Source of the DNA: Zobellia amurskyensis
GTDB lineage: Bacteria; Bacteroidota; Bacteroidia; Flavobacteriales; Flavobacteriaceae
DNA length: 36,523 nt
NCBI RefSeq assembly: GCF_009725985.1
Contig: NZ_RCNR01000048.1
Coordinates: 1-36,523, forward strand
Reading direction: 5' to 3'
Position numbers and translations under genes: made by a program. Below are positions 13,348-36,523 of the stretch, one piece after another (positions within the stretch are counted from its first letter, which is position 1; each line of letters opens with the position of its first letter). A model generated the notes under the pieces. It was not told where the DNA came from. It searched no databases and saw only the letters and a list, made by a program, of their open reading frames with translations.

Positions 13348-13896
13348 CTATTCTAGAATACCATCTACAATGCCATAAGCAATAGATTCCTCCGCATTCA
13401 TCCAATAATCCCTGTCAAAATCTTTCAATACTTTTTCATAATCCTGACCACAATTGTCCGCCAAAATACGTGCGCTCAATTCTTTGGTCTTGATAATTTC
13501 CTTAGCCTGAATTTCAATATTTGAAGCTTGACCTCTTGCCCCACCACTGGGTTGGTGAATCATAACCTGAGCATGTGGCTGAATAAACCTTCTACCTTTT
13601 TTTCCAACAGAAAGCAAAATAGAACCCATTGAAGCCGCAAGACCTGTACAGATTGTAGAAACAGGGCTTTTTAGCGATTTTATGATGTCATACATAGCAA
13701 AACCAGAAGTAACATAACCACCTGGACTATTTATGTATAACTGTATTTCTTTATTATTCTGCATATCTAAATACAATAAACGATCTATAACGTGCTTGGC
13801 GGAATCATCATCTACCATGCCCCATAAGAAGACTTTTCTTTCTTCTAACAATTTTTCGTCTATCGCTTCTTGAACTTTTCCTTTTTTAGAACTCAT
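13348..13896 (-). CDS. clpP: ClpP-family serine protease (stand-alone ClpP)
   Basis: The proteolytic barrel subunit of Clp proteases; it degrades unfolded substrates fed by ClpX- or ClpA-type ATPases. The catalytic triad is visible: S89 in GLAASMGS, H114 in MIHQPSGG and D163 in DRDYWMNAEE. INSPGGYVTSG (55-65) is the oxyanion region. At 182 residues it is slightly shorter than E. coli ClpP and has no obvious propeptide; the N-terminus (MSSKKGKVQEAIDEKLLEER) is charged. There is no adjacent clpX or trigger-factor gene, so this is probably a second, unlinked ClpP paralogue of the kind found in Flavobacteriia. It has its own promoter and a strong terminator, hence a single-gene unit. Confidence 0.93.
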   Translation of the reverse strand: MSSKKGKVQEAIDEKLLEERKVFLWGMVDDDSAKHVIDRLLYLDMQNNKEIQLYINSPGGYVTSGFAMYDIIKSLKSPVSTICTGLAASMGSILLSVGKKGRRFIQPHAQVMIHQPSGGARGQASNIEIQAKEIIKTKELSARILADNCGQDYEKVLKDFDRDYWMNAEESIAYGIVDGILE

Positions 13897-13924: not shown

Positions 13925-14304
13925 AACAATTTATCTGTACCATAACAACGTAAGATCATTATCACTGTAATTACCTTTCATCGCTTTTTCTTACAAGCTA
14001 CCCCAGACCCCTCATTTATTCTTACCGATAGAAACCAACCGCTTATCTATAAATAAATGCTGCTAACGAATAAACCCTCCGTTCATCGTATAGTCTACTA
14101 ATTAACAAGGGTATAGATGAACTTTGTAAACAACAAACAAAACTTATGCTATAAAATTACGGCACTTTTTTATCCCAAATAACCTAGTTGCTACAAATTG
14201 AACTTGACCTTAATTACACCAGTACAAACACTATACAGATAAAGACCTTATGTAGCTTCTAATTATATGTTGATCAATGAGGATTGTTGGACAAACTTAT
14301 AATT
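13925..14304. other. Intergenic region between divergent clpP and the type-B T9SS cargo gene
   Basis: About 380 bases with no convincing coding frame, no strong hairpin and no tRNA-like structure. It should hold the plus-strand promoter for the 14305 operon. The best weak -7 candidate is GAACTTTG near 14118, one mismatch from consensus, which would leave a leader of about 180 bases. Confidence 0.5.
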
Positions 14305-16737
14305 ATGAAGAAAAAATTACTCCAAAAAAAAATAAACAGAGCTGTGGGATTCCTCATGCTCGTTCTGGCCTTCACCAATGCCAATGCTCAACTTCAGAAA
14401 GAGTTTTCCCCTCGGTATTCAGAAACTATAACAGGTGATTTCACTATGGTTGCGAACAATGTGCTTTCTCGGCATGCAACAAACGCATACAATGGAAACG
14501 GTAGTAATCATGACTTTTCGGACAATGTTTTTATTGATATAGATAGTGACCCTACCACTTTCAATTCCAGTAGCGCTAATTTATCCAACCCTTCACCGGG
14601 AAGCTCTTGTATGACAATAGAACGTGTTTTTCTCTATTGGGCAGCAGCCGATAAAGAATATGAGGTTGATGGCTCCGGAACCCCAATTGCGGGCAATGGA
14701 GGCGTTGAACCTTCTTGGAATTTTAATGATATTAAATTAATGCTACCTGGGTCAAGCAACTACGAAGCTACCCTAACCGCAGACGAGGTTATTTACCGTG
14801 GTAGGGATGACCACTTTGTTAACGACCCCTATATCTGCGTTAAGGATATCACTAGTTGGGTACAAGGGTTGAGCAACCCTTTCGGTACGTATCAAGTAGC
14901 CAATGTAAAAGCTACGGAAGGACAATTATTATCTCATGGTGGAGGAAGAACAGGTACTTCGGGTGGATGGCAAATTGTATTTGTTTGGCAGAGTCCGCTT
15001 ATGCCCCAAAAACACATTACCCTTTTTGACGGTTATGCCCATATTACCAGTACGCAAAATAATTTTGATGTTACTTTTGATGGTTTCCAAACCGTACCTA
15101 ACGGTGAGGTAAAAGCCAATATGGTCATTGGTTCTTTTGAAGGAGATCGAGGTATCTCACGTGATCAGTTATTGATATTGGACACGTCAAACTCATGGGA
15201 ACCTTTATCCACTCCAATGAGACCTGCCAATAATTTCTTCAATAGTTCCATTACCACAAATGGCAGCGACTTTTTAGACAGAACACCTGCTAGCTCAAAC
15301 ACTTTAGGGTATGATGCCAGTCTTTTTAATTTAGAAAACACGGGGAACTCACTAATAACCAACAATCAAACATCGGCAACCGTTCGTATGACTTCAGACC
15401 AAGAGGTTTATGGACTTTACCTTTTAGGTATGGCCGTAGAAGTTTATGAACCATCGCTAAACTCATTAGACCTATACGCCACCGCTTCGGATGAAAACCC
15501 GCGTACAGGAGAAACCATTCAAATTTATTTGGATGTGGCCAATACAGGTAACGACAATATTAGAAATCTATCATTTTCGACAACCATTCCGGAGGAGATG
15601 GATTTCATAAGTGTAGAACCGTTACCCCATGAAATTACCTATAATTTTGATTCGGTTACAAGAGAACTCACTTTTAATATAGCCGATGGTTATACCGATG
15701 TTACCAGTGCGCCTTATACCATTCAATATGCCGTACGCATTAAAGATGATGCTTATTTTTCAAGCATCCCGACCTGTACATTTAATTCGGATTCGCAAAC
15801 CGCGGCCATGTATACCGGTGAAATCAATACGACCCAACAAACATCTAACAGTTCGTTTACGTTTGATGAATGTGGCGTTGGTAACGGAGACCCGACCACT
15901 ATAATAATCAGCATTACCGATGTACAAGCTCCTGTTTTTGCAGAAAACCTTCCCGGTGATATTACGGTACCCTGCAACGGAGTACCTGATGCAGCTGTAC
16001 TAACAGCAATTGATTATTGTGACCCAGACCCTTCCACTACTTTCACAGAAACGGCTACCAATGACCGAAGCTGTGAAACCGGTTATGAGATAACCAGAAC
16101 TTGGACAGCAACGGATAGTGCCAACAACACCTTCACCCATACACAAATTATTACTGTAATATCGGATGAATGTATCATGGACGAGGAAGCGCCAACATTT
16201 GTGGAAGAACTTCCACAAAACCTTATTGTAGATTGTGATTCCATTCCTGAAGCAGATGAACTAACGGCTATAGATAATTGCGATGCGGACCCCGTAATAA
16301 CCTTCACGGAAACCGCAACCAATAACGAAGATTGTACTACAGGTTATATAATTACAAGAACGTGGATTGCCGTAGATAACAATGGTAACGAAACTACACA
16401 TACCCAGCTCATTATAGTTGAAGCCGATATGCCTTGTGATATTGAAAACCTTGTAGTTTCTAAAACCCTGACCGCTAATGGCGATGGCATAAATGATGTG
16501 TTTGAAATATCAGGACTGGAAGGTTGTGATTACACCTATCATTTAAAAGTTTTTAACAGATGGGGCAATATTGTTTATGAAAATAGCGATTACTCTAATG
16601 ATTGGAGCGGGTTTGCCCCTAAAAGTTCATTGGGCAACTCAGGTATGCTTTCATCTGGAACCTATTACTATATCATTGGCTTTGGAAACAATGAAATAAA
16701 ACCTGTTAACGGATATATTTATATCGGTTCAAACTAA
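14305..16737 (+). CDS. Large secreted protein with DUF11-like and HYR-like repeats and type-B T9SS (gliding motility, CHU_C) C-terminal domain
   Basis: 810 residues from the ATG at 14305; an upstream TTG at 14284 is less likely. The signal peptide runs to about residue 29 (FLMLVLAFTNANAQ). The first 370 residues are a conserved N-terminal region with FLYWAAADKEYE and GGRTGTSGGWQIVFVWQSP. Next is a DUF11-like beta domain (ENPRTGETIQIYLDVANTGN). Two tandem HYR/Ig-like repeats of about 85 residues follow, each with APxFxExLPxxxxVxCxxxP and CDxDPxxTFTETATN. The last ~90 residues are the CHU_C domain (TANGDGINDVFEISGLEGCD, then FNRWGNIVYENSDYSNDW), the type-B sorting signal exported through the T9SS. 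The next gene, 10 bases away, encodes the PorP/SprF partner. The protein is probably displayed or secreted at the cell surface, perhaps for adhesion. Confidence 0.9.
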   Translation: MKKKLLQKKINRAVGFLMLVLAFTNANAQLQKEFSPRYSETITGDFTMVANNVLSRHATNAYNGNGSNHDFSDNVFIDIDSDPTTFNSSSANLSNPSPGSSCMTIERVFLYWAAADKEYEVDGSGTPIAGNGGVEPSWNFNDIKLMLPGSSNYEATLTADEVIYRGRDDHFVNDPYICVKDITSWVQGLSNPFGTYQVANVKATEGQLLSHGGGRTGTSGGWQIVFVWQSPLMPQKHITLFDGYAHITSTQNNFDVTFDGFQTVPNGEVKANMVIGSFEGDRGISRDQLLILDTSNSWEPLSTPMRPANNFFNSSITTNGSDFLDRTPASSNTLGYDASLFNLENTGNSLITNNQTSATVRMTSDQEVYGLYLLGMAVEVYEPSLNSLDLYATASDENPRTGETIQIYLDVANTGNDNIRNLSFSTTIPEEMDFISVEPLPHEITYNFDSVTRELTFNIADGYTDVTSAPYTIQYAVRIKDDAYFSSIPTCTFNSDSQTAAMYTGEINTTQQTSNSSFTFDECGVGNGDPTTIIISITDVQAPVFAENLPGDITVPCNGVPDAAVLTAIDYCDPDPSTTFTETATNDRSCETGYEITRTWTATDSANNTFTHTQIITVISDECIMDEEAPTFVEELPQNLIVDCDSIPEADELTAIDNCDADPVITFTETATNNEDCTTGYIITRTWIAVDNNGNETTHTQLIIVEADMPCDIENLVVSKTLTANGDGINDVFEISGLEGCDYTYHLKVFNRWGNIVYENSDYSNDWSGFAPKSSLGNSGMLSSGTYYYIIGFGNNEIKPVNGYIYIGSN

Positions 16738-16747
16738 AAAGGCAACC

Positions 16748-17653
16748 ATGACAGCACTTAGGAATCACCTAGCAATTTTAGCGGTTTGCTGTGCCTTTTT
16801 CACAAATGCACAACAACTACCCCAGTTTACACAATACGTCTATAACACTATGTCCATAAACCCGGCATACGCAGGAAGTAGACAAACATTAAATGCTACT
16901 GCCTTGCACAGGAACCAGTGGGCAGGTATTGAAGGTAACCCAACAACAAGTACGTTATCTGTACATACACCCATACGGTTTAGTAATGTGGGTGTTGGTC
17001 TCTCTTATATAAATGACCAACTAGGTTTTGAGAAAACAAATTACATTTATGCGGATATTTCATATACGGTTCCATTAAGTAGGGATGTAAATATGGCCTT
17101 GGGTTTAAAGGGTGGTGTTACCAACTATAAATTAGAAACACCGGACGAAACGGACCCATTCTTTTTTGATGGTTTTTCTAAATGGAACCCAAACATGGGA
17201 GCCGGTATTTACGTAAGCTCTAATAAATGGTACTTAGGTGTTTCAACACCTCGTATTCTTAATACCGATTTGAATAATGGTGAATTTGTTGCTCTTGAAC
17301 GCAATAGTTATTACGCCATTGGTGGATACGTTTTTGATATAGGCGAAACCACAAAATTCAAGCCCACGGCAATACTTAAATACACCAACGGTGCCCCTGC
17401 TTCGTACGATGTAACCGCAAATTTCCTCTTCTATGAGAAGTTTTGGATCGGCGCTTCTTACCGCTTTAATGACTCGGACAGTTTTGGAGTACTCATGGAT
17501 TATGCCATTTCCGACTCCTTTAGGATAGGATATGCGTATGATTTGCCTACCTCAACTTTTAGACCGTATTCAGGAGGCACACATGAGGTTATTCTTATCT
17601 ATGAACTTTTTAACAGAGGTTTAAAAGCTATGAAATCTCCTCGTTATTTTTAG
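16748..17653 (+). CDS. PorP/SprF family type IX secretion outer-membrane protein
   Basis: A 301-residue outer-membrane beta-barrel of the PorP/SprF family. The signal peptide ends at TNAQ (about residue 22). The family signature follows: QFTQYVYNTMSINPAYAGSR (residues 26-45). The remainder alternates short amphipathic strands. It ends in aromatic-rich strands and PRYF. PorP/SprF proteins act with type-B (CHU_C) cargo, which they help to retain or secrete at the outer membrane; sprF beside sprB in Flavobacterium johnsoniae is the model. Here the gene follows the CHU_C cargo gene by 10 bases, so the pair is a dedicated cargo-partner operon. Confidence 0.93.
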   Translation: MTALRNHLAILAVCCAFFTNAQQLPQFTQYVYNTMSINPAYAGSRQTLNATALHRNQWAGIEGNPTTSTLSVHTPIRFSNVGVGLSYINDQLGFEKTNYIYADISYTVPLSRDVNMALGLKGGVTNYKLETPDETDPFFFDGFSKWNPNMGAGIYVSSNKWYLGVSTPRILNTDLNNGEFVALERNSYYAIGGYVFDIGETTKFKPTAILKYTNGAPASYDVTANFLFYEKFWIGASYRFNDSDSFGVLMDYAISDSFRIGYAYDLPTSTFRPYSGGTHEVILIYELFNRGLKAMKSPRYF

Positions 17654-27357: not shown

Positions 27358-28188
27358 TTAGTCCAAACTGTTGTTGTTTCTATACACTTGGCTTTTAAGC
27401 TCCATCATCTTATACAAAGATGCCATATTATCTGCATTTGCGTGTTCCTTAAAATCAGCATCAACCATACAGTAGTTCAAAAAATCATGAATCTGTTGTT
27501 CCGGAATTTTCAAAGTTTGAATGAAAACAGCATCCGTATAAAAAAGTCTTATTTCATCTAGTTTGCGTTCCTCCTTCTCTATACGTGCGTACTTTTTTAA
27601 ATCCTTGGTTTTACCGGATAAATCATCATATAACTTAACTGCTTTTAAAGCATAGAAAACTTTAGGTTTAAGAGATAGAGTATCATAACCCGAAGCTAAA
27701 TCTAAATATTTATTTAAGCGAAGTTTTTCACCTACACCTTTTGGCCTTAACCGTCCTTTTTTGTTTTCCAAACCCAACGATTGAGATGTTATTACCGAAC
27801 CAACAGGAATTCTATTTAAATCCCTACTCATATCTCCTGTTAAACTATATGGAGTTACTACCACTTCCTCTAACTGAGTCAAAACTTCCTCTAAAGGAAC
27901 TACCAGCAATTTACTTCCTAAAATAGATGCCGTAACCACTATTTCTTTCTTGTTATATTGTACCGCCGAGAAAACCAAAGTATCATTAAGGCGAACATCA
28001 ATATCAAAAAAACCATCGGCATCTGTTATAGTAGCTCTATTTGTTGAAGTATTTAATACATGGGTTGCCGAGACATCGCCACTTTCACTATAGACACGGC
28101 CATTTAGAGAAACGGATTCCTGAGCACATGACGTGCTTGCCACCACAGTTATGACACTCACAAAAACTAATTTTTGTAACGGTTTCAT
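27358..28188 (-). CDS. Carboxypeptidase-regulatory-like domain protein, copy C (barrel-less)
   Basis: 276 residues from ATG 28188 (MKPLQKLVFVSVITVVASTS); a TTG at 28206 would add six. The signal peptide ends near SCAQ. Residues about 32-100 form a CarboxypepD_reg-like beta-sandwich domain (GRVYSESGDVSATHVLNTST, then TDADGFFDIDVRLNDTLVFS). It is followed by LEEVVVTPYSLTGDMSRDLN, a segment like the TonB-box/plug start of SusC-type transporters. The rest (about 170 residues) is helical and charged, ending in IHDFLNYCMVDADF. No transmembrane barrel follows, so it is not a transporter. It is most similar to copy B (28246) and less to copy A (29015). Function is unknown; it should sit in the periplasm or at the outer membrane. 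Confidence 0.83.
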   Translation of the reverse strand: MKPLQKLVFVSVITVVASTSCAQESVSLNGRVYSESGDVSATHVLNTSTNRATITDADGFFDIDVRLNDTLVFSAVQYNKKEIVVTASILGSKLLVVPLEEVLTQLEEVVVTPYSLTGDMSRDLNRIPVGSVITSQSLGLENKKGRLRPKGVGEKLRLNKYLDLASGYDTLSLKPKVFYALKAVKLYDDLSGKTKDLKKYARIEKEERKLDEIRLFYTDAVFIQTLKIPEQQIHDFLNYCMVDADFKEHANADNMASLYKMMELKSQVYRNNNSLD

Positions 28189-28245
28189 AGGATATCCTTT
28201 TAGCAATCTACCTCAGCGTAAATTACTTGTTATCTCCTGTATAAT

Positions 28246-29028
28246 TTACTCCTGCTCTTCGTAATTCTCTAGGTACGTTAAACTTTTTCGCTTCATAAAA
28301 GCCCAAATCCGCAACCGGTCATGAGAATCTATGATTTGCTGAAATGCCGAATCGACTTCACAGAAATACATAAAATCATCAATCTTATCTTGGGGGATTT
28401 TTAGTTCCGTAGTATAAAGTGAATCTGCGTAAAACTCCCGTACCCTTTGCGTTCTTTCGTATTTTGCATTTCGTTTTACACGGGCTTTCAACATTTTTTT
28501 ACGGCCCGTTATCATATTGATCAGTGGATCAAAACTCATATATGGGTTTGCCGTTGCCGCCTGAAATTCACGTTCGGCTTTGCTTATGGGCTTTACGTAG
28601 GCATTTGGCAATCCTAAAGTTGAAGCCGTAATAACAGGTTCTGTTTTTAAAGTGTTCAGGTCGCTCGCTATGTTACCGGAAAGACTATACGGCATAACTA
28701 CAACCTCATCCAGCTCCGTTAAAGCCTCTTCTAGAGGAATCATAAGAAGTTTACTTTCAAGAACACTTAGGGTAATTACAATTTCTTTGCGTTTGTATTG
28801 TACGGCAGAAAACACCAAAGTATCGTTAAGCTTTGCCACAATAGTAAAAAAGCCATCAATATCTGTAATTGTAGCTTTTTTTGTAGTAGTATTTAAAACG
28901 TGGGTGGCCGCTACATCGCCATCTTTACTATAGACACGGCCCTGAAGTTCATCAGAAAAGAAATCTTGAGCACATATACGCGTCAAGAGCAAGAAAAAAA
29001 ATAGAAAAAGAAGTTTATTTCTCTTCAT
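28246..29028 (-). CDS. Carboxypeptidase-regulatory-like domain protein, copy B (barrel-less)
   Basis: 260 residues. A signal peptide ends near TRICAQ. The regulatory-like domain matches copy C nearly residue for residue (GRVYSKDGDVAATHVLNTTT, TDIDGFFTIVAKLNDTLVFS). It is followed by LDEVVVMPYSLSGNIASDLN. The C-terminal half is helical and Lys/Arg-rich (GRKKMLKARVKRNAKY) and ends in KIDDFMYFCEVDSAF, again shared with copy C. No barrel is present. The start overlaps the end of copy A by 14 bases, indicating translational coupling. The next gene, copy C, is 57 bases away. Function unknown. Confidence 0.85.
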   Translation of the reverse strand: MKRNKLLFLFFFLLLTRICAQDFFSDELQGRVYSKDGDVAATHVLNTTTKKATITDIDGFFTIVAKLNDTLVFSAVQYKRKEIVITLSVLESKLLMIPLEEALTELDEVVVMPYSLSGNIASDLNTLKTEPVITASTLGLPNAYVKPISKAEREFQAATANPYMSFDPLINMITGRKKMLKARVKRNAKYERTQRVREFYADSLYTTELKIPQDKIDDFMYFCEVDSAFQQIIDSHDRLRIWAFMKRKSLTYLENYEEQE

Positions 29029-29764
29029 TCATTTGTTCTCGGTACGCCTTGCTTTTGTTTACCAAAAAATCGATTAGTTCAAACTCGTTTTTCTTTAAAA
29101 GCAACGCATATTCAGGTTCGTGAGTATCAACATAAATTAGAAAATCATCTATAGATGCTTGAGATAATTTCAGATCAGTAACAAAAAACTCATCGTCATA
29201 CACTTGGCGCAGCACTTGGCTCATTTTCATACGTGGGCGAGCATCCGCATTCTCCTTTTTCCCTGCTTTGGCCAAAGCCTTAAAAATATTCACAAAATTG
29301 GCACCATCCTTCATGCCCCTTTCAGACTGACTTAAAGCTATATTTTCTACTTCCGTAGAACGGTCAATATCATACTCTACCTTCTTGAACTCCTCATTCT
29401 GCAATTGTATAAACTTCTCCTCGTTTTCAGGGCTAACCACAACCTCGTCCAATTCGGTAACCTTTTCATTTACTTCAACCACCAAACGACCGTTTTTTAT
29501 AATTTCATCGGTAATCTTCACTACTTCCATCTGGTAGTTTACCGCCGTAAAGGCCAATTCATCTCCAGCTTTGGCCATAATGGCAAACTGTCCTTTTTCA
29601 TCAGATATTACCGCATTTTCCGTAGTAATATTTATAACGTTCTCATTAGGAACACTTATGCTCCTGTACAAAACCGTACCCCGTAATAAGGAGCGGTCAT
29701 CATCTTGGGCATTGACTGCTATAAAAGAAAAAAGTACACATATTAGAGTAGGGATAATCTTCAT
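29015..29764 (-). CDS. Carboxypeptidase-regulatory-like domain protein, copy A (barrel-less)
   Basis: 249 residues, first gene of the minus-strand cluster. The signal peptide ends at AVNAQ. The regulatory-like domain (about 28-95) reads LRGTVLYRSISVPNENVINI and then SDEKGQFAIMAKAGDELAFT, more divergent from copies B and C than they are from each other. It is followed by TELDEVVVSPENEEKF. The C-terminal part is acidic and helical, with SQASIDDFLIYVDTHEPEYA as the equivalent of the DFL-Y-VD ending in the other copies. The stop overlaps the start of copy B by 14 bases. No barrel is present. The shared C-terminal motif indicates common ancestry and probably a shared binding partner. Confidence 0.83.
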   Translation of the reverse strand: MKIIPTLICVLFSFIAVNAQDDDRSLLRGTVLYRSISVPNENVINITTENAVISDEKGQFAIMAKAGDELAFTAVNYQMEVVKITDEIIKNGRLVVEVNEKVTELDEVVVSPENEEKFIQLQNEEFKKVEYDIDRSTEVENIALSQSERGMKDGANFVNIFKALAKAGKKENADARPRMKMSQVLRQVYDDEFFVTDLKLSQASIDDFLIYVDTHEPEYALLLKKNEFELIDFLVNKSKAYREQMNEEK

Positions 29765-30094
29765 TTGGTTGTTTTATAAATGTCCTCGTAAAGGATATGG
29801 TTTTTTATTAAATCAATTTCAAGGCAACTTTATAAGGAGTACTTTCGTACAATATAGAGTTACTGTTCAGATAAATTAAGTGGATAAAGAAAGTACATGT
29901 TTTGGTCTTAAAAAAACCATGGCGGCTAAACTTTTGTTAATTCGTATTTGAAAAAAAATTAATGACATAACTATCAGGTAACCAGTAATCCTAATCCTTT
30001 TAGCCAGATGAACCGGTAGTTTGTCTTGTTAAATTAGTTAAGTACCAAGATAATTTTATTTTTGTTCACCCTAATACCTTAAATTTTAAACTGT
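29765..30094. other. Divergent intergenic region between the regulatory-like cluster and the fibre gene
   Basis: About 330 bases without a credible gene. It must carry promoters in both directions. The plus-strand -7 box at 30057-30064 is an exact match. On the minus strand only a one-mismatch TATATTGT near 29858-29865 was noticed. No strong hairpin was seen. Confidence 0.5.
30057..30064 (+). promoter_or_regulatory. -7 box TATTTTTG for the fibre operon
   Basis: Exact TAnnTTTG, 30 bases before the ATG at 30095. A TTTG at 30020-30023 lies too far upstream to be a normal -33 element. Confidence 0.5.
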
Positions 30095-33000
30095 ATGCAA
30101 AAGCGCATCTCGATACCGTTATTTTTTGTCGGTTTTTTCCTCATCAATTTTGCACAAGCACAAGTAAAAATAGGTGATAACCCTCAAACAATTGATCCCG
30201 CTTCCATTCTGGAACTAGAAAGTTCGGATAAGGTTTTGGTCATTACAAGAGTAGATTCTTTGCAGATGACCACTATTGTACCCAACCGTGGTGCATTGGT
30301 CTACAATACTACTGCAGATTGCGTGTATTACTATGATGGTGCAGCATGGGTCAGTATGTGCGAAGGAGCGGATGGCGGAGCCCATACGGCTACCCCTATT
30401 GTAAATTCTGAAAGTACCATTGTTATTACCCCTACAGCAGGTGGTAACAATTTTGAAATAGCCCCTAATAGTATTACCAGCGATCAAATATTGAACGGGG
30501 GTATTAATGGGGTAGACATACAAAACGGATCTATTGGACGAGGTAAATTAGCGCCAAATGCCGTAGATAAAGCTAGAATTGCCCAGAATGCAGTTGGCCC
30601 GTACGCCATTGATCGCGATAGTCTTCCGTTAAGCTTTTTTAATAACGATGCCGGTTTTATTACCGGTGCTAACGTAGTAAGTGGCGATGCCGATAACTCC
30701 ATTAGTGTGGGTAGTGATAGCGGTGCATTCTTTGATGCAACCTTTCTAGAGGACAATATTGCCGCAAATACGGCTGCTATTGCTGCGGATGGTGATAAAA
30801 GTAATACCAACGAAATACAGACCCTTTCTATTTCTGGAAATCTATTGTCCATAACCAACGGCAATGCGGTTACTATTCCTACTGCAGATGGCTCGGACAC
30901 CAATATAAACGAAGGTAACAACATAACTATAACCGGTAACGGCACGGCAGCAACACCTTATGTAATAAATGCCGCAAACGAAGTTGATGGTAGTATAACT
31001 AACGAATTGATTACAGGTGTTCTTTTAAATGCCTCCAACCAACTTGTTATAACAGAAGCAGGAACAAACACCACAGTAGACTTAAGTTCTTTGGCTGGTG
31101 GAGGAGCACTTGCCCAAATTAATTCAACCGCCACAGTTACCGTTTCAGGAGACGGTTCTGCAGCTACACCTTACGAATTAACCGTTGTTGGCGGAACCGG
31201 CACTACTCAAAATGCCGCACAAGTTCCAGTAACTGCAACACCCGCAAATTATACTGCGGCAACGGCTGACGTAGAAGCTCATTTAGCTGGAATAGATGCT
31301 GCTTTAACCGGAGGAAGTACCGATGACCAAAATGCGGGCGAAGTACCGGTAGCCCTTACAGCTACTAATTATACTGCAGCTACACCGGACGTTGAGGCTC
31401 ATTTTGCTGGAATCAATACCGCCTTGGGTACAGCAGGAACTGCTCAAAATTTGAGTCAAGTTTTAGCAACGGGTGCTAGCGCTGGAAATCTTAAAATAGC
31501 CGACCTTTTGAACCCCACGTTAGATCAAGATGCGGCTACCAAAAAATATGTGGATGATGAAATTACCGCTAATAATACATTGGCAGATGGGGATATTCTT
31601 GTTGGTGACGCCACAGGAGTGGCACAAGCCGTTACCCTAAGTGGTGATGCCACAATGGATAATGCGGGGGTTCTTACCGTTGAAGATGATGCCATTAACA
31701 CAGATAAAATATTAGACGCAACTATTGGTCTTACGGATTTAAGTGATATGGGAGCCACAGCAGACGGCCAAATACTAAAGTGGGATACGGCTACAACCTC
31801 TTGGATTGTCTCAAATGGCTCGAGCCATTTTGGTACTGAAAACGCTATCTTTTTTGGAGATGATGTAGATGGTTCACCAACGGATGCTGGAAATGAGTTT
31901 TACTGGGATCCTGAAGGCAGAAAAGTCAGTACGTTAGGCTTTGGTGCTTTGTATATTGGGTTAGATGGTGCTCTAAACACAAAAAGTACAGTTGCCAAAG
32001 TTCAGATTATGGAGCAATTAGGCGGACAGTTGTCATATGCCTTGCACCTTCAAAATGATACTAATTCAAATGGTTCTGCGGTAGCAACTTTATTTGCAGT
32101 AGATGGTGAGGGAGGTTTTGGAAAAGGAGCTTTAGCTTACGAAAGAACAGGGGCGTATGCTACCGGAGATTTTCACTTTCTTCAAAATTCTAATAATACC
32201 AATGAGTCCTTACCTACCCTAGCAGACAAAGCCTTTACCGTAAAAAACAATAGAGACATCGTCCTTTATAATGGTATCGAAATTGCAGGAGACCGTGGAG
32301 ATGCAAATCAGGTATTAACCTCTAATGGGGCTGGAGCCGTTTCTTGGGAAGATGCAGGTGAACTTTCCATTACTGATGCCGATACAAATGATGCCTTAGT
32401 AGTTCAAACTGATGGCAAGGGTTATAATATTGGTGTTGATGACACTACAATAGAAATAATATCGGATGCATTGCAAGTTAAAGATGCCAGTATCAACTCG
32501 GCAAAAATTACAAATGGCACCATCGCGTTAGAAGATTTAAGCAACATGGGTGCAACAACCAACGGAGAGGTCCTAAAGTGGGACCAAGATAATCTAGTAT
32601 GGAAAATAGGAACGGATGATGCCGCTTCTACAACCTATACTGGTGGAGCTGGTATAACGCTTACAGGAACAACTTTTGCTGTGGACAATTTAGCAGGAGA
32701 AGTAACCGGGCCAACTTCTGCTACTGTAATTGCCGATGATGTAATTGGAACCGATGAATTAGCTCCTAACGCTGTCTTTGAAGAAAATATTAATGCTAAC
32801 GCTGTTACATCAGCTAAAATAGCACCTAATACAATTGCTATTGAAGATCTTAGTCCAATGGGCGCAACGGCCAACGGACAAGTTCTAAAATGGGATAATG
32901 ATAATACAACATGGACTATTGGCACAGACAATGGCGGTTCTACTTCATACACTGCTGGAGATGGGCTTGCTGTAACAGCTGCAAATGATTTTAGCGTAAA

Positions 33001-33982
33001 TGTTGATGACTCAACTATAGAAATAGCATCAGATGTACTTCTGATTAAAGATGATGGTGTAACCAACGCTAAAATTGCTGACGATGCAGTAAATACTGAT
33101 CAGATTGCTCCAGGAGCTGTTAAAGAAAATAGTATTGCCAACGACGAAGTAACTATTATTAAAATAAAAGAAAGTACAATAGACGGTCAAATATTAACAA
33201 CAAACGGCACCGATGTTGTTTGGGCCGATGCTCAAAATTTCGCAAAATCTGATTTAACTCAAACTTTAGGTCAAAAAAGAATATATGATTTAAATGGTTC
33301 TAATTTACAATTCGCTACCAATGGTGGAAAAATTGGAATTGGTGCCTTACCTGGAGAACCACAAGATCAATTAGATGTACGTGGCTCTATTAGAAGTAGA
33401 GAAGGTTTCAATGCTACAGGAGGGGATGCCGGTGGCCCTGGTTATGGTTTTTACACCAATGATGACAATGATACAGGAATGTTCAGGGCTTCTGAAGATA
33501 ATTTAGGTTTTTCAACAGGAGGCGTAGAAGTTCTTAGAATTGATGATGCACAAAACGTAGGTATTGGTACCGATACTCCCACAAGAAAATTACATATAGC
33601 AGGTGATCTTCAAGTAGACGGAGGAGTTTGGGTAGCAGCTACACAAGTTCACCCTGACTATGTATTCGAAAAATACTTTAATGGTTATTCAAACTTAAAA
33701 AGTTCTTATAGTTTTAGAAGTTTAGAGGAAATCGAAATTTTTGTTAAAAAGAACAATCACTTACCTGGAATTTTATCAGCTGAACAAATTAAAAATGAAG
33801 GCTCATATAACCTAAGTAATGCTAATACTGTACATCTAGAAAAAATAGAGGAACTTTTCCTTCACACCATAGAACAGGAAAAGGAAATCAAAAAACTTAA
33901 AGCCGAAAAAGAAGCCATGGCCAAGGAATTAAAGTCCATGAAAAATGATATAGAAGAAATTAAAGCACTTCTAAACAAATAA
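30095..33982 (+). CDS. Giant secreted phage-tail-fibre-like repetitive protein
   Basis: 1295 residues. The signal peptide ends at AQAQ (about residue 23). The N-terminal domain starts VKIGDNPQTIDPASILELES and ends near DCVYYYDGAAWVSMC, a module found at the start of many Bacteroidota fibre-like proteins. The centre (about 90-1100) is Thr/Ala/Asp-rich and repetitive, with units carrying DLSxMGATxxGQxLKWD and NYTAATxDVEAHxAGI. A segment near 1090-1180 has GNVGIGT-type tail-fibre strands (RIDDAQNVGIGTDTPTRKLH). The last ~110 residues hold HPDYVFEKYFNGYSNLKSSY, then KKNNHLPGILSAEQI, and end in a Lys/Glu coiled coil, resembling fibre C-termini that self-trimerise. No CHU_C or type-A sorting domain ends the protein, so its export route is unclear. 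The next gene, 33 bases away, encodes a CHU_C protein. Likely a surface fibre or adhesin. Confidence 0.85.
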   Translation: MQKRISIPLFFVGFFLINFAQAQVKIGDNPQTIDPASILELESSDKVLVITRVDSLQMTTIVPNRGALVYNTTADCVYYYDGAAWVSMCEGADGGAHTATPIVNSESTIVITPTAGGNNFEIAPNSITSDQILNGGINGVDIQNGSIGRGKLAPNAVDKARIAQNAVGPYAIDRDSLPLSFFNNDAGFITGANVVSGDADNSISVGSDSGAFFDATFLEDNIAANTAAIAADGDKSNTNEIQTLSISGNLLSITNGNAVTIPTADGSDTNINEGNNITITGNGTAATPYVINAANEVDGSITNELITGVLLNASNQLVITEAGTNTTVDLSSLAGGGALAQINSTATVTVSGDGSAATPYELTVVGGTGTTQNAAQVPVTATPANYTAATADVEAHLAGIDAALTGGSTDDQNAGEVPVALTATNYTAATPDVEAHFAGINTALGTAGTAQNLSQVLATGASAGNLKIADLLNPTLDQDAATKKYVDDEITANNTLADGDILVGDATGVAQAVTLSGDATMDNAGVLTVEDDAINTDKILDATIGLTDLSDMGATADGQILKWDTATTSWIVSNGSSHFGTENAIFFGDDVDGSPTDAGNEFYWDPEGRKVSTLGFGALYIGLDGALNTKSTVAKVQIMEQLGGQLSYALHLQNDTNSNGSAVATLFAVDGEGGFGKGALAYERTGAYATGDFHFLQNSNNTNESLPTLADKAFTVKNNRDIVLYNGIEIAGDRGDANQVLTSNGAGAVSWEDAGELSITDADTNDALVVQTDGKGYNIGVDDTTIEIISDALQVKDASINSAKITNGTIALEDLSNMGATTNGEVLKWDQDNLVWKIGTDDAASTTYTGGAGITLTGTTFAVDNLAGEVTGPTSATVIADDVIGTDELAPNAVFEENINANAVTSAKIAPNTIAIEDLSPMGATANGQVLKWDNDNTTWTIGTDNGGSTSYTAGDGLAVTAANDFSVNVDDSTIEIASDVLLIKDDGVTNAKIADDAVNTDQIAPGAVKENSIANDEVTIIKIKESTIDGQILTTNGTDVVWADAQNFAKSDLTQTLGQKRIYDLNGSNLQFATNGGKIGIGALPGEPQDQLDVRGSIRSREGFNATGGDAGGPGYGFYTNDDNDTGMFRASEDNLGFSTGGVEVLRIDDAQNVGIGTDTPTRKLHIAGDLQVDGGVWVAATQVHPDYVFEKYFNGYSNLKSSYSFRSLEEIEIFVKKNNHLPGILSAEQIKNEGSYNLSNANTVHLEKIEELFLHTIEQEKEIKKLKAEKEAMAKELKSMKNDIEEIKALLNK
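31736..32940 (+). repeat. Degenerate repeats inside the fibre gene
   Basis: Three coding units with the pattern DLSxMGATxxGQxLKWDxxxxxW begin at 31736, 32534 and 32846. The last two are 312 bases (104 codons) apart and share flanking INxAK/TSAKI-type motifs. The first is more distant because a unique stretch, ENAIFFGDDVDGSPTDAGNE, intervenes. Confidence 0.75.
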
Positions 33983-34015
33983 AACCAGGTCAATAAAGCG
34001 CAATCTGCATTGAAC

Positions 34016-35167
34016 ATGATGAAACATCTTTACATAGCGGCACTTATTCTGGCAACGGGCATACAGGCACAATCGGCTTTGTACAATACCGGCAACCTTC
34101 GTATTCACGATGGCGGTGTCATGGGTTTGCATACCAACCTGGTCAATGACGGTAGTTTTGACGAGAATCTGGGCTTGGTAGGCTTTTATGGAGACAACCT
34201 CCGTACCATTAGCGGAAGTTTGCCCGCAACCTTGTACGATGTTGAGTTCGTAACTGGCGGCGGTACCGTAGTGCAGACCTCTCTAAATGTCTTGAACAAT
34301 GCCAATTTCATTACCGGAGATATTATTACCGATCGCGTACAACCTTCCATAACCCTTAACTTTTTGGCAGATGCTTTTCCCAACGGCCAGAGCGATATTA
34401 GTAAGGTAGACGGCTATGTAAGCGTAAACAATCAGCAGAACTTTATTTTTCCCGTTGGTGATTTTCAACAGTTGCGTCCGCTTATTTTAAATTCTGGAAG
34501 TGTAAATAGCGTGGCACGTTGTGCCTATTATATAGAGGACCCTAACAGCCCAAGTGTACTGCCACGAGCATTCAACACGAACAATAAAGCCGTAGAAATT
34601 GGAGACATAAGTACGGTTGAGTTTTGGCACTTGGAAGGCTCCGTACCATCGGCCATTCAACTTTCTTGGAACGAACGTAGCAACATGGGGCTTTTGACCA
34701 ATGATGTAAACGAGATTGTAATTGTAGGCTATAGCAAATCGGCCAACCAATGGGTAAGCCTTGGTGGTCCCGCACCTGCTGGAAATTTAAACCAAGGTGT
34801 GGTAGCTTCGGGCTCCTTTATTCCGGACGAGTATGAAGTACTTACTTTTGCGGCATTGGGAGAACCTAGGGATTATTTAGACTTGGAAAACTATTTTGTT
34901 TCTCCCAACGGAGATGGTATAAACGATTTCTTGGAAATTTCGGAATTAGCCCTTTCCCCCAACAACTTTATGCAGATTTATAATCGTGAGGGACTCAAAG
35001 TATTTGAAAAAGCAAATTACACCAATGAGTTCAACGGACTTTCTACGCAAAACAATTTTGTGGTAACAAGAGATAAAGGACTTCCTTCAGGCGTGTACTT
35101 TTATATTGTTACCCTAAACGATTTGGACCTTGAGTTTCAAGGATTTTTATATTTGGCGAACGATTAA
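34016..35167 (+). CDS. Secreted protein with type-B T9SS (CHU_C, gliding motility) C-terminal domain, fibre partner
   Basis: 383 residues from ATG 34016; ATG 34019 is equally possible, and a TTG at 34010 less so. The signal peptide ends at GIQAQ. Residues about 20-290 form a beta-rich domain with YNTGNLRIHDGGVMGLHTNL near its start, then GDFQQLRPLILNSGSV and VEFWHLEGSVPSAIQLSW. The last ~95 residues are CHU_C: YFVSPNGDGINDFLEISELA, IYNREGLKVFEKANY and GVYFYIVTLND, the type-B sorting signal for the T9SS. It is 33 bases downstream of the fibre gene, so both are probably co-transcribed up to the terminator at 35171. The partner may anchor the fibre or carry it out, but no SprF gene is next to it. 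The gene is richer in G+C than the end of the fibre gene. Confidence 0.88.
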   Translation: MMKHLYIAALILATGIQAQSALYNTGNLRIHDGGVMGLHTNLVNDGSFDENLGLVGFYGDNLRTISGSLPATLYDVEFVTGGGTVVQTSLNVLNNANFITGDIITDRVQPSITLNFLADAFPNGQSDISKVDGYVSVNNQQNFIFPVGDFQQLRPLILNSGSVNSVARCAYYIEDPNSPSVLPRAFNTNNKAVEIGDISTVEFWHLEGSVPSAIQLSWNERSNMGLLTNDVNEIVIVGYSKSANQWVSLGGPAPAGNLNQGVVASGSFIPDEYEVLTFAALGEPRDYLDLENYFVSPNGDGINDFLEISELALSPNNFMQIYNREGLKVFEKANYTNEFNGLSTQNNFVVTRDKGLPSGVYFYIVTLNDLDLEFQGFLYLAND

Positions 35168-35170
35168 TTT

Positions 35171-35201
35171 AAAAAAGAGACCGAATCGGTCTCTTTTTTT
35201 T
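35171..35201 (+). terminator. Rho-independent terminator of the fibre operon
   Basis: AAAAAAGAGACCG (35171-35183) pairs with CGGTCTCTTTTTT (35187-35199), loop AAT, with a T-run to 35201. It follows the CHU_C gene stop by 3 bases. Confidence 0.9.
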
Positions 35202-35617
35202 ATACCGTTCATCGATGTTCTACCCTATGCTATTACCTCTACAGAATATACCTACAACTTATTCTCCTGACTACACTACACTTTGGCTTTACTACACAAC
35301 AAATTCTGTGCAGTTCGTCGATCAGCGTCTAATTTTACATTAAAATTGAAATTCCCCTGCCTAAAAAAGAAATTGGTTTCACATTTTGGCCTACCAAATA
35401 TAAACCAGATTCTGTAGTGCATTCTTTTTTAAGATGAAATGATTTGAGCCTTTATTACCTAGAAAATAGGTAATCATTAAAAAAGGAATAACTCCCTTAT
35501 TTAGCGTACCAACAGGTTTGACATAAATCAATTTAGAAACGAGAAATTAAAATATAACATTAACCGCCCAGACATTTTATTCAAAAAAATAAAATGTTAA
35601 ACAAATCTTAACATAAG
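35202..35617. other. Long intergenic region before the second fibre gene, with two inverted repeats
   Basis: About 416 bases, AT-rich, without a credible gene. It holds a perfect 8-bp inverted repeat, ATTACCTA (35454-35461) and TAGGTAAT (35467-35474), and a 10-bp one, ACATTTTATT (35572-35581) and AATAAAATGT (35588-35597), the latter 20 bases before the ATG. No exact TAnnTTTG was found. Operator or leader functions are possible. Confidence 0.5.
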
Positions 35618-36523
35618 ATGAAAAACGTTCCCCTCATCGTTCTCCTCTTTTTAGCGCAATTAGCCTACTCACAAGTCAAAATCGGAGACAACATCAATCA
35701 AATTGATGCTGCCTCCCTTATGGAATTGGAAAGTGCCTCGCGCGTGCTGGTCGTTACTCGAGTAACCAATGCCCAAATGAGCGCGATTACACCATTAAAC
35801 GGTGCACTGGTTTTCAATACGGACGAAGACTGTCTTTTTCAGTATAAAAATAATGTATGGACCAGCTTGTGCGTTAATGTTGCAGCAGGAGAAACGGTCA
35901 CCGCTTTACTGGATAACAATGACGGCACCGTAACCTATACCAATGAAGCCGGAACCCCCGTTACATTTTCAAAAGCCAATTTAACGGACAATCTAGACGG
36001 TAGTTTCACCTTTACCAATGGTAGCGGTGCGCTAAACTTTATAGGTACGGACAATCAAAATCTTGATAACGCTACTTTAGAGGAAAGCACCTCTACTTTA
36101 CTGATTGAGATTGAAAATGGAAATAGCACCAGTGCCGATCTTTCGGCTTTGGAAGAGTCTGCCGACATTACTGCCGTTCAAAACGATGTGGACCAGAACG
36201 AAACTGACGCTGATGCTGCAATTCTTGCCGAAACCAATAGAGCAACTGCAGCAGAAACCACCATTCAAAATGATGTCGACCAAAACGAGGCTGATGCAGA
36301 CAACGCAATTGCAGCTGTACAATCGGATGTGGACCAGAACGAAACTGACGCAGATGCCGCAATTCTTGCCGAAACCAACAGAGCAACGGCCGCAGAAACT
36401 ACCATCCAAAATGACGTTGACCAAAATGAAGCTGATGCAGACGCCGCGATTCTTGCAGTGCAAAACGATGTGGACCAAAACGAAACAGATGCAGACAACG
36501 CAATCGCAGCTGTACAAAACGAT
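35618..36523 (+). CDS. Second fibre-like secreted protein, 3' end beyond window
   Basis: Open to the last base: 302 codons are seen without a stop. The signal peptide is MKNVPLIVLLFLAQLAYSQ. The N-terminal domain is a close paralogue of that in the gene at 30095: VKIGDNINQIDAASLMELES, then RVLVVTRVTNAQMSAI and DCLFQYKNNVWTSLC. Next comes a Thr/Asn-rich stretch (LLDNNDGTVTYTNEAGTPVT). From codon 187 a tandem array of VQNDVDQNE-type repeats fills the rest of the window. By analogy with the first fibre the full protein is probably a very long rod. The start is fixed by the signal peptide and by AAGATG context; a weak AAG ribosome-binding site precedes it. Its downstream partner gene, if any, lies outside the window. 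Confidence 0.88.
   Translation, partial: MKNVPLIVLLFLAQLAYSQVKIGDNINQIDAASLMELESASRVLVVTRVTNAQMSAITPLNGALVFNTDEDCLFQYKNNVWTSLCVNVAAGETVTALLDNNDGTVTYTNEAGTPVTFSKANLTDNLDGSFTFTNGSGALNFIGTDNQNLDNATLEESTSTLLIEIENGNSTSADLSALEESADITAVQNDVDQNETDADAAILAETNRATAAETTIQNDVDQNEADADNAIAAVQSDVDQNETDADAAILAETNRATAAETTIQNDVDQNEADADAAILAVQNDVDQNETDADNAIAAVQND
36176..36523 (+). repeat. Tandem 18/29-residue coding repeats in the second fibre gene
   Basis: Six unit starts are seen. The units, in order, are 29, 18, 29, 18, 18 residues and a truncated one. Each begins [VI]Q[NS]DVDQNE[TA]DAD and ends in AI[LA]A; the 29-residue units add ETNRATAAETT. The first two pairs make 47-residue (141-base) super-repeats. Copies differ mainly at third codon positions, so protein sequence is conserved more than DNA. 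Confidence 0.95.

Follow-up and report, generated by a model that had tools for sequence, protein, structure and literature searches.

A conserved pairing of a putative surface-fibre gene with a small partner bearing a type IX secretion signal in Zobellia amurskyensis and its relatives

A fibre–partner–fibre cluster at a contig end

The window analysed here, 36,523 nucleotides from Zobellia amurskyensis (contig NZ_RCNR01000048.1, here C48), is the whole of one contig of a 5.14-Mb genome assembled in 120 contigs. It ends in three co-oriented open reading frames (ORFs): a long fibre protein (FIB1), a small partner carrying a type IX secretion system (T9SS) signal (CHU1, hereafter the partner) and a second fibre (FIB2). 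FIB1 is followed after 27 bases by the partner, and the partner after 450 bases by FIB2. A preliminary description, made from the letters alone, had proposed this cluster as a candidate undescribed surface-fibre module. Its features, by window coordinate and strand, are as follows.

30095–33982, +: FIB1, 1,295-aa fibre protein with a signal peptide (by eye), head, variable rod, beta segment and C-terminal coiled coil
30161–30364, +: FIB1 head, residues 23–90, from an alignment of 31 heads; its start is the mature N terminus as read by eye
33497–33637, +: FIB1 residues 1135–1181, sequence match to the Bdellovibrio mosaic adhesive trimer (MAT) fibre bd2133 (8ond)
33656–33979, +: C-terminal tip of FIB1 (DYVF...HLPG...coiled coil), from an alignment of tips and a low-confidence model
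34010–35167, +: partner CHU1, 385 aa, with a signal peptide, N-terminal beta-rich domain and CHU_C signal
34061–34870, +: N-terminal domain of the partner, candidate docking site for the head, from a family search without the CHU_C part and a model
34883–35155, +: CHU_C type IX secretion signal domain of the partner (Pfam)
35618–36523, +: FIB2, second fibre, 302 aa, open frame cut by the contig end
35666–35875, +: FIB2 head, from the head alignment
36167–36523, +: 54/141-bp tandem repeats inside FIB2, within which the contig end falls

FIB1 and FIB2 share a head of about 68 residues after the signal peptide (E 8e-24, 48% identity), the common N-terminal domain to which the preliminary description had pointed. 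Because C48 ends within the 54/141-bp repeats, FIB2 is cut by the assembly. The protein between the two fibres is indeed of CHU_C type, scoring 85 bits in Pfam against a cut-off of 27; with NCBIfam TIGR04131 it reaches 34.3, slightly below the cut-off of 35, and a paralogue on contig C87 reaches 43.1, above it. A TTG at 34010 gives the 385-aa frame, and an ATG at 34016, the better fit to relatives, is probably the true start. The N-terminal domain of the partner is modelled with good confidence (predicted local distance difference test, pLDDT, 89.6). No PDB fold matches the partner model at E 1e-3, and the single match in a viral library at 1e-3 is labelled a gliding-motility C-terminal domain. 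One copy of the promoter pattern TANNTTTG lies at 30057, with the window total at chance (54 against 49 expected); sigma-70 (15 against 16.7) and terminator (8 against 6.2) scans of the window are likewise near chance.

The head gene and the partner form a conserved pair

With the CHU_C part removed from the query, a search at E 1e-6 detects the partner in 53 of 199 family genomes. Stretches around it were fetched in two sets, 20 first and then 20 more that include Flavobacterium johnsoniae CI04 (L numbers denote stretches, C numbers contigs); the 32 aligned partners, 30 of them from the first set, are ORFs of 378–406 aa. A head gene lies immediately 5′ of the partner in 30 of 40 fetched copies of the window's subfamily (31 of 41 with the window), and within five same-strand genes upstream in 32 of 40 (33 of 41), counts that include partial heads and use a profile that most of the full heads also helped to build. 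These full heads came originally from an iterated search seeded with only FIB1 and FIB2, in which they scored E 1e-30 or below. The eight copies without a detected head sit in same-strand runs that reach the contig or stretch end. In 36 of 41 cases the gap between head and partner genes lies between −62 and +40 bases; in the remaining five it is 78 to 565 bases. The pairs occur in tandem, one to three per locus. Fibre and T9SS partner form a conserved gene module, and the pairing first noticed in a single contig extends across relatives. A CHU_C gene unrelated in expression and in conservation had been named as a finding that would overturn the module; as far as conservation goes, fibre and partner stay together.

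Conservation is concentrated at the head. Across 31 aligned heads the mean column identity is 68%, and two cysteines are kept in at least 90%. In comparisons with three orthologous fibres, FIB1 is 63–79% identical over its first 100 residues and 22–70% identical, with gaps, in its other 100-residue bins; in the same comparisons the partner is 56–92% and BamP1, encoded upstream, 67–91% identical. At several loci small proteins of 227–373 aa, carrying only the second half of a head, stand between fibre and partner (L059 13244–14107, L064 15611–16732, L069 11066–12532 and L022 2180–3064).

The genome holds one further full-length partner, on C87 (stretch L022), 39% identical to that of the window. 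The preliminary description had proposed looking for a second partner beyond position 36523; the contig stops there. On C87 a 294-aa protein with part of a head comes before the second partner and, further upstream, the end of a fibre with FIB2-like repeats. In L059, too, fibre, small head protein and partner follow one another in that order after the first pair. FIB2 is likely, though not certain, to be continuous with the C87 fibre, on the strength of the similar repeats and the L059 order. Against this, C87 positions 1–241, which adjoin the fibre repeats, match contig C25 base for base, which makes the start of C87 a probable chimeric assembly joint. On contig C80 (L021 5092–10679) a gene for a 251-aa head protein precedes a giant ORF. 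The end of that ORF is similar to the beginning of a minus-strand ORF on C87 (L022 4632–7235), which itself ends in a type-B-like signal. The N terminus of the giant protein was at first read as a partner domain; the profile gave no match, and it was left out of the counts.

Variable rods and phage-related tips on a constant head

Several tip types are carried on the one conserved head, and the rods differ as well. Pfam Collagen scores 446–857 bits in four of eight fibres scanned, and in the fibres of L059, L060, L064 and L065 the collagen arrays are very long, with G-X-Y runs that total about 890–1,730 residues in a simple pattern count. FIB1 itself matches Bdellovibrio MAT fibres in the PDB, over the whole sequence at 6e-9 (8ond, bd2133), 4e-5 (8ol4) and 2e-4 (8ojn), the best single stretches giving 0.001, 5e-5 and 0.006, respectively. 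It also matches six phage records, all within residues 879–1179, and its residues 1124–1179 match phage tail-fibre-type proteins. The C87 fibre belongs to a tip family of nine sequences, which matches the terminal part of a phage tail protein (9occ, 3.5e-8), its remaining 14 matches being no better than 0.19; other fibre copies end in the HLPG coiled-coil tip. The model of the FIB1 C terminus, beta segments with a long terminal helix (model residues 153–207), is of low confidence (pLDDT 65.4). Compared with the PDB, the head profile gave chance matches only, none of them credible.

Collagen rods in relatives, the MAT match seen in relatives and in FIB1, and the phage-tail match of the C87 tip family are consistent with the trimeric rod that the preliminary description had envisaged, and from these signs in the sequences we infer that FIB1 trimerizes. 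The fibre, having a signal peptide (by eye) and no export signal, might stay in the periplasm or span it, with the partner an unrelated surface protein. We hold this to be very improbable: long rods whose exchangeable tips resemble those of phage and MAT fibres suit an outward-facing role, and the MAT proteins are described as surface displayed (PMC10769870).

Absence of phage context and a preferred chromosomal site

The matches of tip and beta segments to phage tail proteins could suggest a remnant or domesticated tail-fibre locus of a phage or an extracellular contractile injection system. FIB1, the partner and FIB2 have no PHROGs match at 0.01. Of 20 further window ORFs compared with PHROGs at E 1e-5 (some small ORFs lay outside the scan), seven have matches; the sole ones to 'head and packaging' families belong to a ClpP protease (13348–13896, minus strand), whose likeness to phage head-maturation proteases is a matter of housekeeping rather than phage. 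In viral contigs 102 stretches fit the head patterns and none was confirmed as a head relative, while matches of the partner there are confined to residues 241–385, essentially the CHU_C part; phage records gave no match for the partner. The genome has no sheath gene by a search that was positive in 3 of 14 control genomes. Phage structural genes flanking the region had been named beforehand as the finding that would overturn the module; the flanks are instead BamP-like, DUF6702 and M1 peptidase genes on one side and VanY, M48 and iPGM genes on the other. A phage tail-fibre origin is disfavoured on all these counts and in our judgement scarcely credible. A plasmid search returned five records with partial weak matches, one of them an unannotated stretch of a Variovorax record. 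The module is real, conserved and, as far as tested, not phage.

Among the first 20 stretches, BamP1-type genes lie divergently upstream of the pair in 15, VanY lies downstream in 16, and both are present in 12. L073 has neither beside the pair, and L063 has BamP with genes other than VanY on an intact downstream side; the remaining one-sided stretches end at or close to the pair. BamP1 is matched in 15 of 19 genomes without a partner match, closely so in three (E 1e-51 or better). In the stretches fetched from these three (L279, L280 and L281; a fourth, L282, is cut), BamP adjoins VanY with one or two intervening genes of 147–312 aa. As the BamP–VanY site may be occupied by the pair or empty of it, the pair is an optional module found mostly in one chromosomal place. 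In the window, three BamP-like paralogues (27358–29764, minus strand; NCBIfam BamP, all below cut-off) run divergently from FIB1. Related loci have two to four copies where that side is fully visible, and the copies are retained in genomes without the fibre pair. In F. johnsoniae, BamP is described as a subunit of BAM located in the periplasm (PMC12611786).

A proposed T9SS-anchored fibre docked on its partner

Gene order and domain content make it probable, in our view, that the two genes encode a T9SS-anchored trimeric surface fibre whose head docks on the N-terminal domain of the partner. Three identical fibre chains would assemble into a rod that is collagen in some copies and coiled coil or beta-prism in others, ending in an exchangeable distal tip. 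The constant N-terminal head would be the end nearest the cell and would dock on the N-terminal domain of the small partner, the product of the gene that follows. Carrying the T9SS signal, the partner would cross the outer membrane through SprA, and a PorP/SprF-type barrel would retain it on the surface. For the window's subfamily this barrel would be encoded at another site in the genome; in the F. johnsoniae-type subfamily, SprF and a PorE-like protein from the same operon would hold the partner. We infer docking, surface display and the outer-membrane crossing of a signal-less fibre together; the fibre is probably an adhesin, and its most likely job would be adhesion to cells, glycans or particles.

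This genome has a gene for SprA (2,892 bits) and 15 PorP/SprF genes. Eight of the 15 adjoin a CHU_C match and seven do not (the CHU_C search may miss some), so that an unlinked shuttle for the window partner is possible. Elsewhere in the window (14284–17653), a separate 817-aa CHU_C protein is directly followed by a PorP/SprF gene, an arrangement like that of SprB and SprF.

Docking is proposed mainly on what stays constant beyond the family. The partner N-terminal domain occurs in 186 of 395 class-level genomes, with many matches inside large proteins; it is so widespread that alone it cannot define the system. In six class-level loci the domain lies near the N terminus of a small protein (414–513 aa), with heads upstream in five, directly 5′ except at L250 (one gene further); in 14 loci it lies in proteins of 671–2,354 aa, and none of those stretches has a head (Fisher p 0.0004, for 20 loci picked non-randomly from stronger matches and divided into small and large post hoc). 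One of the five head-bearing loci, L257, belongs to the window's own family and has a type-B signal. The other four, outside the family, have type-A signals, three above the cut-off and L253 below it (20.3 against 23), and no head from outside the family was used in building the head profile. Head and partner N-terminal domain thus persist while the sorting signal changes, the main reason to propose that these two dock.

A divergent subfamily adds the barrel gene that the window's cluster lacks, and suggests the anchoring. Its 17 partner copies (407–453 aa, one exception having 662) give weak matches to the N-terminal profile of the first subfamily, at E 9e-17 to 6e-29 for sixteen, the seventeenth being L257. 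A PorP/SprF gene stands within three genes downstream in 15 of the 17 and a PorE-like gene downstream in 12, the query for the latter being the PorE-like protein of L154 itself. In a Pfam check of two loci, L154 scored 300 bits for PorP_SprF and 56 bits for OmpA. In F. johnsoniae CI04 the gene upstream of the partner homologue encodes a 661-aa protein with Collagen repeats (E 6e-14), and the partner homologue is followed by a SprF gene and a PorE-like gene.

Besides the way in which the class-level loci were chosen, several observations weigh against the docked fibre. As the preliminary description had stated, the first fibre has no T9SS sorting signal of its own, by Pfam or NCBIfam scan. No SprF gene stands within three genes downstream in any of 40 copies of the window's subfamily, which leaves the surface anchor of the partner itself only assumed. 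L155 and L156, two of the 17 divergent copies, have no SprF downstream, and a head stands within five upstream genes in only nine of the 17, six of these nine heads having built the generic head profile. Seven of the other divergent partners are cut by edges, and L158 is uncut yet headless. L238 is a small class-level partner without a head. Over 25 pairs, distances between heads track those between partners (r 0.43), and of the 32 within-genome arrangements the true one scores best; with five genomes and 1 of 32 that swap test is weak, and 2,000 free permutations reached 0.474, above the observed 0.430, so that the correlation is supporting evidence at most.

A rival reading is that of two independent, co-transcribed surface proteins of common purpose that do not bind one another, the fibre being retained or released in some other way. 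The evidence is genomic, tight operons also unite proteins that make no contact, and the window cluster has no SprF. We nevertheless think it unlikely. The pairing outlasts both the change from type-B to type-A signal and the change of rod and tip, with head and N-terminal domain constant; the genes are repeated in tandem as pairs, and their paired divergence, a weak argument, points the same way.

Alternatively, the partner could act chiefly as an export pilot that takes the fibre through SprA piggy-back, with no need for final anchoring. This would suit a fibre without a T9SS signal beside a neighbour that has one, a combination that recurs with type-A signals. It is improbable: we found no precedent for signal-less T9SS cargo in the T9SS literature consulted, and collagen-like rods of up to about 1,700 residues (simple pattern count) would be a very large load.

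The docked fibre, if correct, invites a wider claim: a general display system of Bacteroidia, in which many kinds of trimeric rod (giant collagen, coiled coil and beta-prism) on the one head would be exported piggy-back through the T9SS pore and pinned by a small signal-bearing adaptor. This we regard as possible, and hold with reserve. Such a fibre would also assign a function to small T9SS substrates, whether their signal is of type A or type B. The loci also raise the question of signal-less T9SS cargo and draw attention to very large collagen-bearing proteins in Flavobacteriaceae.

Relation to known systems

Type Vc trimeric autotransporter adhesins are trimeric head-and-stalk surface adhesins. 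FIB1 differs from them in having no Pfam match to the type Vc C-terminal membrane anchor domain, and its proposed cell-proximal end is the N terminus. The grappling hook GhpA of Aureispira (PDB 9flp), also a surface fibre, carries a C-terminal signal of like type (E 3e-10, profile positions 294–378); unlike the pair described here, it is a single giant protein, and no match falls outside the signal domain.

In F. johnsoniae, a SprF-like gene is reported adjacent to 9 of 12 type-B substrates, and three orphans have none (PMC12618676); adjacency to SprF is, on that account, not obligatory for type-B substrates. The examples given are SprB–SprF, Fjoh_3952-3951-3950 and orphans that share Fjoh_1677, and a type-B/SprF/PorE operon is discussed in that 2025 paper as the static surface anchor of a putative adhesin. 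The CHU_C-type signal is common to both cases, and the CI04 locus, which may or may not be Fjoh_3952, has a like layout. The differences are that the type-B protein is there itself the putative adhesin, whereas here it is a small partner and a separate fibre is proposed to be adhesive, and that SprF is missing from the cluster in the window's subfamily.

Full-text searches of an open-access library gave no description of a fibre paired with a T9SS partner, and nothing relevant there on collagen-like or trimeric fibres with T9SS; in the accessible text of PMC5742166, the collagen triple helix is named solely in a reference title. The term 'undescribed' is too strong as it stands: the fibre is close in kind to MAT fibres, and the SprF/PorE layout of the divergent subfamily has already been discussed for F. 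johnsoniae.

The closest relatives in kind are the MAT fibres of Bdellovibrio bacteriovorus, which, as described in PMC10769870, have an N-terminal domain of ~130 aa and no identified surface partner; an S74 chaperone–protease domain is present in 13 of 21 and absent from eight, and the Pfam scan of FIB1 found no S74 domain. Signal peptide, long rod and diversified phage-tail-related tips are shared; each kind also has a constant N-terminal domain, and the picture suggested by this analogy is of a bacterial head furnished with phage-type tips (PMC10769870). Here the head is shorter, at ~68 aa, and may or may not be homologous to the MAT domain; some rods are collagen, and a T9SS partner gene adjoins. 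A candidate surface partner stands beside a MAT-related fibre in over 30 genomes, including one strain of F. johnsoniae, a genetically tractable species. On the wider reading of a general Bacteroidia display system, the interface of head and adaptor would supply the anchoring principle still missing for MAT-type fibres.

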